A DNA stretch of 64,000 bases from Tetradesmus obliquus (taxonomy: Eukaryota > Chlorophyta > Chlorophyceae > Sphaeropleales > Scenedesmaceae). Every line of letters begins with the position of its first letter. The stretch's first letter is position 1. The notes beneath the pieces are model-generated. The model saw only the letters and a program-made list of their open reading frames with translations. It searched no databases and was not told the DNA's origin. A program made the position numbers and the translations under genes. Below are positions 1 to 64,000 of this stretch, one piece after another. The stretch covers positions 5,492,501-5,556,500 of the forward strand of contig CP126198.1 in assembly GCA_030272155.1 (NCBI GenBank), written 5' to 3'.

Positions 1-308
1 TGACAGGAGTTAAGGGGAGTCAACACCCCCTTACGTACAAGTAACATGTTGTACATACTGATGTTGGCGAGCCTGTGCAGCCCTTCAAACTCCACTTACA
101 GCGTGAGTGCTCAAGGTAGCACTGTGCCCATTGCTTCAGAACAACTGCAAGAAAAGCCAAAACATGCCTTGCACTGTACAGTGCAGTGGTGTGTCATTGA
201 CAAGCATAATGCCAGCGAGCTGGCGGTAGGGTGGCCAATGTCTGCAACACATACCCTAGCGTGATGGTGTAGTGCTCCTTCTTGTTGCCGCTCCAACCCT
301 TAGGGTGC

Positions 309-741
309 TAGAACCCTGCTGAGCCCTGCAGTGGCGGCAAGTTTACAACTGCTCTGCACTCCAATCAACTGCCACCCAGCGTCGCACTGCGTGGCGACTG
401 ACACCGGCAAGGTCGCTGAAAGTGACACAATACTAGATCCCTGCCGAGCCCTGCAGTGGCGGCGGAAACGCAACTGCTCTGCACTGCAGTCAACTGCCAC
501 ACAGCTTCAAAGCGCGTGGCGGCCAACACGCAGGATTGCCCAGACTGACATGATGCTAGATCCCTGCCGAGCCCTGCAGTGGCGGCGGGAATGCAACTAG
601 CGGCAGGCTCCACAGCAGCTGCCACAACCAAGATTCAAATCAATTGCCACCCAGCATTGCACTGCATAATGGCTTGCATGGTTACAGCCACTCAAACCCT
701 TGGGGTGCTAGATCCCTGCTGAGCCCTGCAGCGGCGGCACG
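309..741 (-). repeat. Four tail echoes of the RGP1 coding end
   Basis: Four copies of the last roughly 30 coding bases of RGP1 (sense FPPPLQGSAGI-stop region) lie beyond the stop, near 311, 436, 559 and 711. The genuine copy starts at 832. Spacing is 121-152 bp. Copies are about 90 percent alike by eye. They would fall in the 3' UTR or just beyond it. Confidence 0.85.
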
Positions 742-62500: not shown

Positions 62501-64000
62501 CATCAAGTGCAGGCAGGGGAGTACAGCAGGAGCAGCAGGCAGCGGGCCATGCCAGGTGGCTTGCACACATCTGGCCAGTGGAGCAGAGGTCGCAGCAGTA
62601 CTGAAGCAGCAGCAAGCGCAGCTACGAAAGCAGCAGCAGCCCGCAGGCAGCACCAGCAGCGGCATGCAGCAGCACCTCTGCAGAAGCGCTATTCAGCAGC
62701 AGGCAGCTATCAAGCCTGCGGCACCCGTGACAACAGGCCAGGATGCATATTCAACATAACCACTGGTGTCCCTGCTTACATGTTGTAAAATGAAAACTCA
62801 CCCGTTATAACCTCAAAGCAAGCATGCCGTGCTGCTTGCAGGAAGTCCCCCAAGGCCATGGCCAAGCTGCGCAAGCAGGTGCGCCGCACCAAGGAGGTGC
62901 TGTCAGCCAACAGCGCCGCCCCCATCAGCGTGGAGGAGCTGCACGAGGGCAAGGACTTCCAAAGTTCGATCAAGCGCGAGGAGTTTGAGGCGATGGCGGG
63001 AGACTACTGGAAGCGCGTGGCGGTGAGTGCGCTGCTGCTCGGCCGCTCTTTTGATGTGAAAAAATCATTTGTTTGGTTGTGTGCGGCTTTGGTCGGCAGG
63101 CGGCTGGGTGGAGATGTCTATGATGTGTGCGTGCAAGCCTGAACAAGCCCCTTGCTCTGAATCGCTGCGCACGCGCAGGCGCCGCTGACGAAGCTGCTGT
63201 CCCGCAATAGCCGCACTAACTATCGCCTATCTTGCCATCAACCTTCGTTTGCACTGTGCAGGCGCCGCTGACGAAGCTGCTGGCGCGCAACAAGCTTGCC
63301 GCCAAGGACGTGGACGCGGTGGAGCTGCTGGGAGGCGGCAGCCGCGTGCCCAAGCTGCAGGCGGAGCTGTCCGCAGCGCTGGGCGGCAGGTGCGTGTGGC
63401 CGTGTGACGGGTCTGGCCACACCAGCCAGTGGTGTGGTTTGTGCCAGACTGCAGGTTGCGCCTACACCCAGCAGGCTTCAACGTGTTGATGGGCTGGCCG
63501 TTGTTCATTGGTTTTGATTGCGACACGACTCACGCATGGTTTGTGTGTAGTCGTTGAACCGGTGGAGCTGCTAGGCGGAGGCAGCCGCGTGCCCAAGCTG
63601 CAGGCGGAGCTGTCCGCAGGGCTGGGCGGCAGGTGCGCTTGAGATGAGACCTCAGCAGCACTCAATTCGATGATGGGCAGAGTGTTTTGTGTTGCAAATA
63701 ATGTCTTATTGCAAGTTGCGTATCAATGCGCGCCCAAGCTGCAGGCGGAGCTGTCCGCAGCGCTGGGCGGCAGGTGCATGTGGTCAGCTGTGTTCATAAC
63801 AGTTCACTGGTGATGTGGTGTGTGTCTGCACGCAGCCCGTACCCAGCAGCAGCTGAGCACAGCTCGGCAAAACTGTGCACAGTGCGTGTTTGATGCTTGT
63901 TTTCGCGTTGATTGGGGTTGTATGTTTGCGCTGCTGCTGCTGCTGCTGCTGCCACCCGGCAGGCACCTGGATCGCCACCTGGATGATGACAAGGTGCTAG
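59501..64000 (+). CDS. HYOU1: ER HSP70 family chaperone, HYOU1/Lhs1 (GRP170) type, 5' part
   Basis: ER-lumen chaperone and nucleotide-exchange factor for BiP. Exons in the window: 59501-59935, 60808-61032, 61410-61540, 62201-62281, 62842-63022, 63262-63389 and 63963 onward (cut by the window end). All phases agree. A signal peptide (SCCLVALLACQLMLAAQGS) leads into MAIDLGSEYLKVCLVKPG, the first ATPase motif. Further landmarks are VVVVPAWFGVAQRQAVIDAA, YDIGSGSTEAALVKYSVYG (phosphate-2 motif), LLLAEHFAKEF and AVELLGGGSRVPKLQ (adenosine motif). The spacing follows HYOU1/HSP70-17 rather than BiP. The C-terminal holdase extension and any retention signal lie outside. Echoes flank exons 2, 3 and 6. 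Confidence 0.9.
60540..60768 (+). repeat. Two acceptor-side echoes of HSP70 exon 2
   Basis: TGCAG acceptors near 60545 and 60676 precede copies of AGIFQYAKQITDAQAGESVV (first copy AGTFQ, second AGKSVV) up to VVVVP, then a GTGTAT or TTGTAT sequence. The genuine acceptor is 60807. Confidence 0.93.
61251..61287 (+). repeat. (CAG)11 tract in HSP70 intron
   Basis: CAG units in the intron between exons 2 and 3. Orientation is opposite to the acceptor-linked CTG tracts. Confidence 0.85.
61688..61998 (+). repeat. Two donor-side echoes of HSP70 exon 3
   Basis: Copies of KPGSSKGVTNQFEVLDVEWD through the CACAG donor junction near 61695-61768 and 61930-61996. The first has KPGSFKGVTKQFEVLNVEWD. The second has TAG in place of the Gln codon before FEV. 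Intron sequence (TTGAGAGCAGCTGCGGCTGC) is duplicated with them. Confidence 0.93.
63175..63225 (+). repeat. Acceptor-side echo of HSP70 exon 6
   Basis: CGCAG followed by APLTKLLSRNSR, copying APLTKLLARNK, 83 bp upstream of the genuine acceptor. Confidence 0.9.
63552..63780 (+). repeat. Two donor-side echoes of HSP70 exon 6
   Basis: Copies of VELLGGGSRVPKLQAELSA through GGCAG and GTGC donor near 63556-63634, and a shorter one (PKLQAELSAALGG) near 63728-63778. Confidence 0.93.

Follow-up and report, generated by a model that had tools for sequence, protein, structure and literature searches.

Echoes of exon edges in introns of Tetradesmus obliquus look like tolerated leftovers of short tandem duplications

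Copies of exons within one gene are familiar from tandem exon duplication and mutually exclusive exons, introner elements place a repeated sequence inside many introns of a microalga, and break repair in plants yields short tandem duplications, direct and local, that measure tens to hundreds of bases. In the potato RdRp gene, the available part of the published account describes an intron-exon stretch that was tandemly duplicated to give a new intron and a piece of exon, with splice signals derived from the parent intron, as well as an 83-bp duplication within an intron of the same gene (PMC4974935). Here we describe a related and much denser pattern in a 64-kb stretch of the green alga Tetradesmus obliquus (bases 5,492,501-5,556,500 of contig 8, assembly GCA_030272155.1; hereafter the window), in which the beginning or end of an exon recurs in the adjoining intron as additional copies in various stages of decay, which we call echoes. 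We found that these copies are direct, local and concentrated at splice junctions, and that their exon halves remain alike longer than their intron halves.

The sequence examined amounted to 264 kb, namely the window and 20 further 10-kb samples (L009-L028) on 14 contigs; the genome searched comprised 104.66 Mb on 17 contigs, and a paper that lists GCA_030272155.1 gives 17 contigs and 104.70 Mb, alongside a second 17-contig T. obliquus assembly, GCA_030272055.1 (PMC12571836). Junctions over the 264 kb were called with a small hidden Markov model gene finder, self-trained on these sequences, which sometimes takes echoes for exons; an earlier codon training on long open reading frames was dropped as biased to low complexity. 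Alongside these calls, we assembled a homology-supported set of 23 edges in five genes, scanned for 1.6 kb on each side. The triose-phosphate translocator protein P0004 maps exon by exon to the window (tblastn; Pfam TPT), an aurora-like kinase is supported by neighbours and Pfam Pkinase (the window's own protein is absent from the matches listed), and the stitched 210 residues of a proteasome beta-5 subunit are 100% identical to T. obliquus P0241. The remaining two genes, identified through Pfam, are an Hsp70-family gene, which we take to be HYOU1-like, and an RRM-protein gene, presumably ABT1-like. These edges were chosen by hand, mostly at sites of echoes already noticed, and the 19 of 23 that bear an echo are therefore not a rate.

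Comparison of the window with itself (BLAST, expectation value E 1e-4) confirmed the local, direct nature of the repeats, with 112 direct-repeat high-scoring pairs within 3 kb and none farther apart. At E 1e-3, six 10-kb tiles of the window gave 110 direct and 3 inverted pairs spanning at most 1.5 kb, with 3 direct pairs beyond that distance, and the 20 outside samples gave 161 direct, 20 inverted and 15 more distant direct pairs. Local pairs were present in 16 of the 20 samples, and repeat coverage ranged over 9-34% in the tiles and 0-33% in the samples; the window is on the rich side of the genome, though not alone there. The initial annotation of this DNA had called the density and generality of exon copies extraordinary; the density is indeed striking and extends to other contigs, but the kind of event is already known. 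Its figures of roughly 80 copies in at least nine of eleven genes were not exactly reproduced, as its gene list was not rebuilt.

After redundancy was removed, 182 local pairs remained in the 264 kb (75 in the window, 107 in the samples). Pairs with exon in one copy only were twice as common as under random placement (112 vs 56.0 ± 5.9), and 108 pairs touched a predicted junction (50 of 75 in the window, 58 of 107 in the samples) vs 61.6 ± 6.0 expected and a maximum of 79 among 300 random placements. Conversely, pairs confined to introns (34 vs 77.6 ± 6.1) or to intergenic sequence (7 vs 21.6) were depleted, and pairs with exon in both copies stood at expectation (29 vs 26.8). Low-complexity masking, which hides intron pairs, and gene-finder errors may contribute to the contrast between exon-in-one-copy and intron-only pairs. 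Seen from the predicted junctions, 54 of 126 in the window (43%) and 128 of 556 in the 264 kb (about a quarter) lie within a repeat copy or at most 8 nt from one, and 71 of the 112 exon-in-one-copy pairs are spaced 80-300 bp apart. Exon-edge echoes are thus real, and over the 264 kb repeat pairs touch predicted junctions more often than random placement would give.

The echoes also have a characteristic polarity. At the 23 homology-supported edges we counted 40 echoes, all on the expected side, 38 of them reaching the junction, with no wrong-side and no inverted copy within 1.6 kb. With junctions called by the gene finder, expected and opposite polarities numbered 58 vs 9 in the window and 128 vs 39 in the 264 kb, and in 17 of those 39 opposite pairs the partner was itself called as a real junction. 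Polarity described beforehand as strict is therefore strict in the homology-supported set and only strong elsewhere. If a tandem duplication spans an acceptor, the remainder of the exon stays joined to the last copy only, and if it spans a donor, to the first copy only; because of this geometry, upstream echoes necessarily carry the acceptor plus exon start and downstream echoes the exon end plus donor. Since geometry accounts for the polarity, no special mechanism is required.

Exon and intron halves of the echoes differ in their fate. The exon parts of homology-supported echoes are 79-100% identical to the real exon, and the two halves were compared for the 38 of 40 echoes that reach the junction, at the 19 edges bearing echoes. 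The young array at exon 7 of the translocator gene keeps both halves (180, 175 and 170 matches of 191 between copies 1-2, 2-3 and 1-3), with 3, 5 and 6 differences in 110 exon positions and 8, 11 and 15 in 81 intron positions, so that the exon half is about three times less diverged. Over the whole set, 23 of the 38 echoes match the intron without gaps for at most 8 nt, and 12 do so for at least 20 nt. A gapped comparison over 84 nt recognised the intron half (z score of at least 3) in up to 24 of 38, an upper figure, as the composition-only shuffles that served as control are inflated by CTG-rich introns and two of the values are 3.0 and 3.2. Two introns seemingly unrelated near the junction align farther out, one of them, after the kinase echo at 30030-30066, matching the real kinase intron in 73% of 81 columns with a shift of 6 nt, and the other reaching 66% over 110 columns with a shift of about 21 nt. 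Among 14 long pairs (exon part of at least 55 nt, identity at least.93), z was below 2.5 in nine and at least 3.5 in five over at most 60 intron nt; the intron beside the exon 4 echo of the translocator gene is unlike or weakly alike the real one (z 0.6 and 3.2 in two comparisons). In a genome search that skipped common words, exon 4 and two intron segments matched only themselves or the local echo. A first measure of intron identity was replaced as poor, since random pairs already scored 0.379 ± 0.203.

Because the intron half is still alike in many echoes, many duplicated units spanned the junction, and we infer the same for the remaining ones; together with directness, proximity and polarity, this bears out the initial reading of the echoes as tandem duplications of junction-spanning segments. 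That similarity often ends at the splice site follows from faster erosion of the intron half. Plain recent duplication with uniform divergence was ruled out by the differing divergence of the two halves, and the idea that copies end exactly at junctions was given up when looking farther into the introns revealed old homology for several of them.

Differences between echoes and exons are predominantly silent while the echoes are young. We compared codons in pairs with a stop-free frame, taking frames from the self-trained gene finder and codon scores, with one pair for each of 65 real junctions and without pairs of more than four gap columns. Silent and replacement changes numbered 41:17 at identity of at least.93 (25 junctions, P 1.6e-5), 84:58 at.85-.93 (26 junctions, P 6.5e-5) and 48:57 below.85 (14 junctions, P 0.31), where an echo that evolves neutrally next to a conserved exon, with equal branches, has an expected silent share of 0.43 and P treats changes as independent. 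Bootstrapping over the 51 junctions at identity of at least.85 gave a silent share of 0.55-0.70, with 0 of 5000 replicates at or under 0.43. We estimate the silent excess from these changes at about 6-8 differences per 100 codons. The 20 samples alone, which were not used to form the idea, behaved alike (14:7, 48:35 and 33:44; P 0.025, 0.0046 and 0.55), as did the homology-supported genes alone (24:11, 29:17 and 21:30), for which the identity classes differ slightly and echoes of the same exon are not independent. The clearest single case of silent bias is the array at 14029. Between the predicted real copy and four echoes, the 27 codons of the exon half show 7-8 silent differences and no replacement, and the intron half differs at only 1-2 of 70 nt; the distal echo at 15233 is more similar to the predicted real copy (3 silent, 1 replacement). 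It looks as if, at this junction predicted by the gene finder, a diverged coding allele had taken the place of the exon half. A silent bias present in young echoes and lost in old ones fits an initial, allele-like silent load followed by neutral decay, not lasting selection, and suggests that exon edges may exchange with coding alleles before the echo decays.

Taken together, we consider it probable that the echoes are leftovers of frequent short head-to-tail tandem duplications, followed by exchange confined to exons and then by neutral decay; they have the appearance of remnants that the genome tolerates and not of introns in the making. When a duplicated unit spans a splice junction, the copy joined to the exon body stays real and the other copy comes to lie in the intron. 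Duplications inside exons would break the protein and be removed, and intronic or junction-spanning ones would be tolerated. The intron half is quickly scrambled and the exon half stays alike longer, leaving a sharp edge at the splice site. The likeliest reason is recombination, whether between alleles or between an echo and its exon, and whether as unequal exchange or as gene conversion; it would act only where sequences align, namely on exon pieces, and because of this confinement the differences between echo and exon would at first be silent and allele-like. Finally, echoes would decay as neutral passengers, as the ratio in the oldest class indicates. A wider picture, which we put forward only tentatively, is that exon edges are recombination islands between alleles whose introns no longer align; echoes would then be a by-product that records silent allelic differences beside scrambled introns, and the genome would hold a series of junction duplications of differing age, some of them tried as new exons or introns.

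Several observations weigh against the proposal of duplication, exchange and decay. Besides the inflated control mentioned above, 14 of 38 homology-supported echoes show no trace of the intron half (z < 3); six of these belong to the 20 echoes whose identity reaches at least 94%. Of 50 pairs with at least 0.90 exon identity, only 13 show intron homology at p <= 0.01 when random introns serve as control, and 29 show none (p > 0.05) within 60 nt. An intron half untraceable in so many echoes is not predicted by plain junction-spanning duplication. The spacing of the repeats in the window and samples, with a mode at 100-140 bp, a further increase near 240 bp and hardly any pairs under 80 bp, is likewise not explained by the proposal, though detection bias is possible at the lower end because short spacings are harder to detect. 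Stop codons, at 4 of 982 codons at identity of at least.85 and 0 of 234 below once gap-rich pairs had been removed, are not distributed as advancing decay would suggest. In addition, eight junctions were removed by hand from the table of silent and replacement changes because they looked like echoes called as real or like poor gene calls, and the exchange between exon pieces is deduced rather than directly observed.

Of the other explanations, the one that fares best is gene conversion within the chromosome alone, from exon to echo, with replacement changes in echoes purged through harmful back-conversion. It would explain exon-limited similarity and silent bias without diverged alleles, and at a few sites of the 44913 array the alignment reads as if sequence had been exchanged between exon and intron halves; however, repeats of only about 30-110 bp would have to convert one another at high rates, and we regard it as rather unlikely to suffice. 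Purifying selection on echoes as translated alternative exons, with codons conserved and introns free, could likewise produce the silent excess of young echoes, and it would agree with the lack of stop codons in the oldest class and with a protein, P0001, that holds one echo as an in-frame repeat of 36 residues. Yet the oldest echoes show the neutral ratio of 48:57, several echoes contain frame-shifting gaps, the proteins P0004, P0002 and P0003 lack any echo, and silent change exceeds intron change in the 14029 array. Moreover, some echoes keep silent sites too (no differences in 55 and 37 nt beside eroded introns), which selection at the protein level cannot achieve, and we consider this explanation improbable.

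The initial annotation had also seen a resemblance to intron gain by tandem duplication of AGGT-containing segments, possibly caught in progress (the Rogers model). This did not hold up in general. Of 300 predicted introns, 1, with a predicted length of 98 nt, has a duplication that spans both junctions with a period matching its own length, vs a mean of 4.08 for shifted periods. Furthermore, the order of the pieces is reversed, as echoes of the upstream exon follow its donor, end donor-like and do not abut the next acceptor. In-register identity across the two junctions of 288 introns exceeded the best value of a control of similar number (0.45) in three cases, at 0.68, 0.55 and 0.52 (Table 1); CAG|G shared at true junctions explains part of this, and it may explain four further introns at 0.48. 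Two or three single introns are thus alike in register, and it is possible that single introns were born by AGGT duplication; that intron gain of this kind is under way in the genome is very improbable. We rate as highly improbable an RNA-aware copying, from complementary DNA or spliced RNA, ending exactly at exon borders: in 23 of 38 echoes ungapped similarity indeed stops no more than 8 nt from the junction, but the intron half is detectable in up to 24, inverted and wrong-side copies are absent at the 23 edges, and no echo of an exon-exon joint was noticed in passing, though no search was aimed at such echoes. Finally, an assembly or polishing artefact is extremely improbable, as most copies differ from the exon, P0001, a model from another T. 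obliquus assembly (OEZ85), contains one of these echoes, and each of the two intron segments searched occurs once in the genome.

Echo splice sites, some of which had been described as identical to the real ones, are so in some copies only and are weaker on average (mean position weight matrix score 4.7 vs 6.4, pairs with exon identity of at least 0.93). The splice dinucleotide is retained in 103 of 113 pairs at exon identity of at least 0.80 and in 7 of 15 below, and of 138 pairs, 111 remained in a set for which the echo had to retain GT or AG. Because block selection favours retention, we do not conclude from this whether echo splice sites are under selection. In a motif test, donor-like sites were found at 52 of 384 repeat-block ends and at 28 of 348, 18 of 259 and 16 of 191 positions further inside. 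Acceptor-like sites showed no such excess at block ends (63 of 384 vs 100 of 348, 53 of 259 and 24 of 191 inside), a probable reason being that CTG/CAG repeats also fit the acceptor profile. The acceptor consensus learned by the gene finder is CTGCTGCAG-like, and CTG/CAG runs directly precede acceptors in several introns, with 55 CTG units at 29414 (29414-29579). By eye, an acceptor looked frequent at the inner border of downstream echoes, an impression on which we make no claim.

The translocator gene, the sole gene with an annotated protein of this assembly, illustrates how echoes may be read. Comparison with P0004 shows that the copy spliced is the one adjoining the exon body. Among the four T. 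obliquus-like translocator proteins compared, P0004, P0002 and P0003 contain no echo, and P0001, from the OEZ85 assembly, is the exception, including one exon 7 echo as its 36 extra residues. This extra exon is probably the first downstream exon 7 echo, and the matching copy in the window begins just after a TTAG at the duplication joint. Judging from the P0001 model, recruitment of an echo as an additional exon may happen occasionally. At 21672-21749, the oldest exon 7 echo has LLAMSG in place of the LLLTSG of the T. obliquus exon; it shares this reading with the related protein P0005 and may preserve an ancestral state.

Table 1. Exons, echoes and arrays of the window, with introns alike in register across their two junctions; positions are those of the window unless a sample is named
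Feature	Position	Strand	Support or remark
Triose-phosphate translocator exon 4, end = donor junction	19154-19300	+	tblastn of P0004, Pfam TPT
Downstream echo of exon 4 end	19452-19542	+	91 nt at 97%, 3 silent/0 replacement
Upstream echo of exon 6 start (acceptor + exon start)	20203-20243	+	88%
Translocator exon 6	20310-20469	+	tblastn of P0004
Downstream echo of exon 6 end	20525-20596	+	72 nt at 99%; following intron bases unlike
Three upstream echoes of exon 7 start (20653-, 20779-, 20912-)	20653-20956	+	82-86%
Translocator exon 7	21024-21212	+	tblastn of P0004
Downstream echoes of exon 7 end	21290-21762	+	Two 187-191-bp units with intron half alike, and an old degenerate one (21672-21749)
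Three upstream echoes of exon 8 start	21894-22265	+	124-bp units, CTG-rich intron half
Translocator exon 8	22310-22528	+	tblastn of P0004
Upstream echo of kinase exon 29085-29245	28796-28850	+	No difference in 55 of 55 nt; eroded intron half
Aurora-like kinase exon, donor end	29582-29719	+	Homology, Pfam
Two downstream echoes of kinase exon 29582-29719	29881-30066	+	29881-29939, 30030-30066
Upstream echo of kinase exon 30442-30603	30245-30281	+	
Kinase exon	30442-30603	+	Homology, Pfam
Downstream echo of kinase exon 30442-30603	30724-30826	+	103 nt at 97%, 3 silent/0 replacement
Two upstream echoes of Hsp70-family exon 60808-61032	60546-60756	+	131-bp units
Two downstream echoes of Hsp70-family exon ending 61540	61701-61994	+	227-bp units
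Upstream echo of Hsp70-family exon 63262-63389	63179-63207	+	29 nt at 93%
Two downstream echoes of Hsp70-family exon ending 63389	63552-63773	+	
Proteasome beta-5 gene, echo stretch	48309-50013	-	Real edges 50099, 49424, 49282, 48506
RRM-protein exon starting 44959 and its upstream echoes	44913-45627	-	109-bp array
Predicted real copy 14029-14179 and four neighbouring echoes	14029-15320	-	151-bp array
Intron alike in register	L024, 4999-5121	-	0.68
Intron alike in register	56496-57294		0.55
Intron alike in register	L009		0.52

The window holds other repeats as well. Minisatellites with 26-37-bp units or higher-order patterns lie at 42000-42511, 25671-25991 and 37819-38070, and near-identical short copies of its first bases (1-36 and 262-295) occur on many contigs, perhaps as a small dispersed repeat. 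Within the proteasome gene region, a 135-codon open frame on the minus strand (47851-48255) resembles by eye the tail of a retrotransposon reverse transcriptase; a Pfam search of this frame gave no match.

Echoes of this kind offer a natural experiment on splice-site choice between near-identical sites, on the route from tandem duplication to new exons and introns, and on recombination where introns turn over faster than exons; they also call for caution, as gene models in such genomes can contain echo exons. We recognised no report of exon-edge echoes in Tetradesmus or Scenedesmus, and none of such density or of an exon-limited, silent-biased pattern, in literature searched mainly by listing and including few subscription journals; in the available part of the paper that lists the T. 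obliquus assembly (PMC12571836), the words tandem and intron each occur 0 times.

Among known systems, introners differ in that they share a common element, whereas both intron segments searched here are single-copy and no common element is seen. Unlike mutually exclusive exons, the echoes are mostly partial, one-edge copies at the 23 edges and are absent from three of four translocator proteins, and unlike the local duplications left by break repair in plants, they are dense and associated with exon edges. They resemble AGGT intron gain in that the duplicated segments hold splice-like sequence, but the order of the pieces and the period generally do not fit. As in the potato RdRp gene, insofar as the available part of that account allows comparison, there is direct tandem duplication across an acceptor junction with inherited splice signals, and copies carrying an exon edge and intron flank are direct and local (40 direct and no inverted; flank in 13 of 50 by the stricter control). 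Potato RdRp is one gene with one recruited intron, whereas here many apparently unrecruited copies of acceptors and donors occur genome-wide, similarity is often limited to the exon, and a copy recruited as a spliced exon is seen in the P0001 model only. Junction-spanning tandem duplication with inheritance of splice signals was already known from single genes, and what T. obliquus adds is its density and the exon-limited, silent-biased pattern of the copies.

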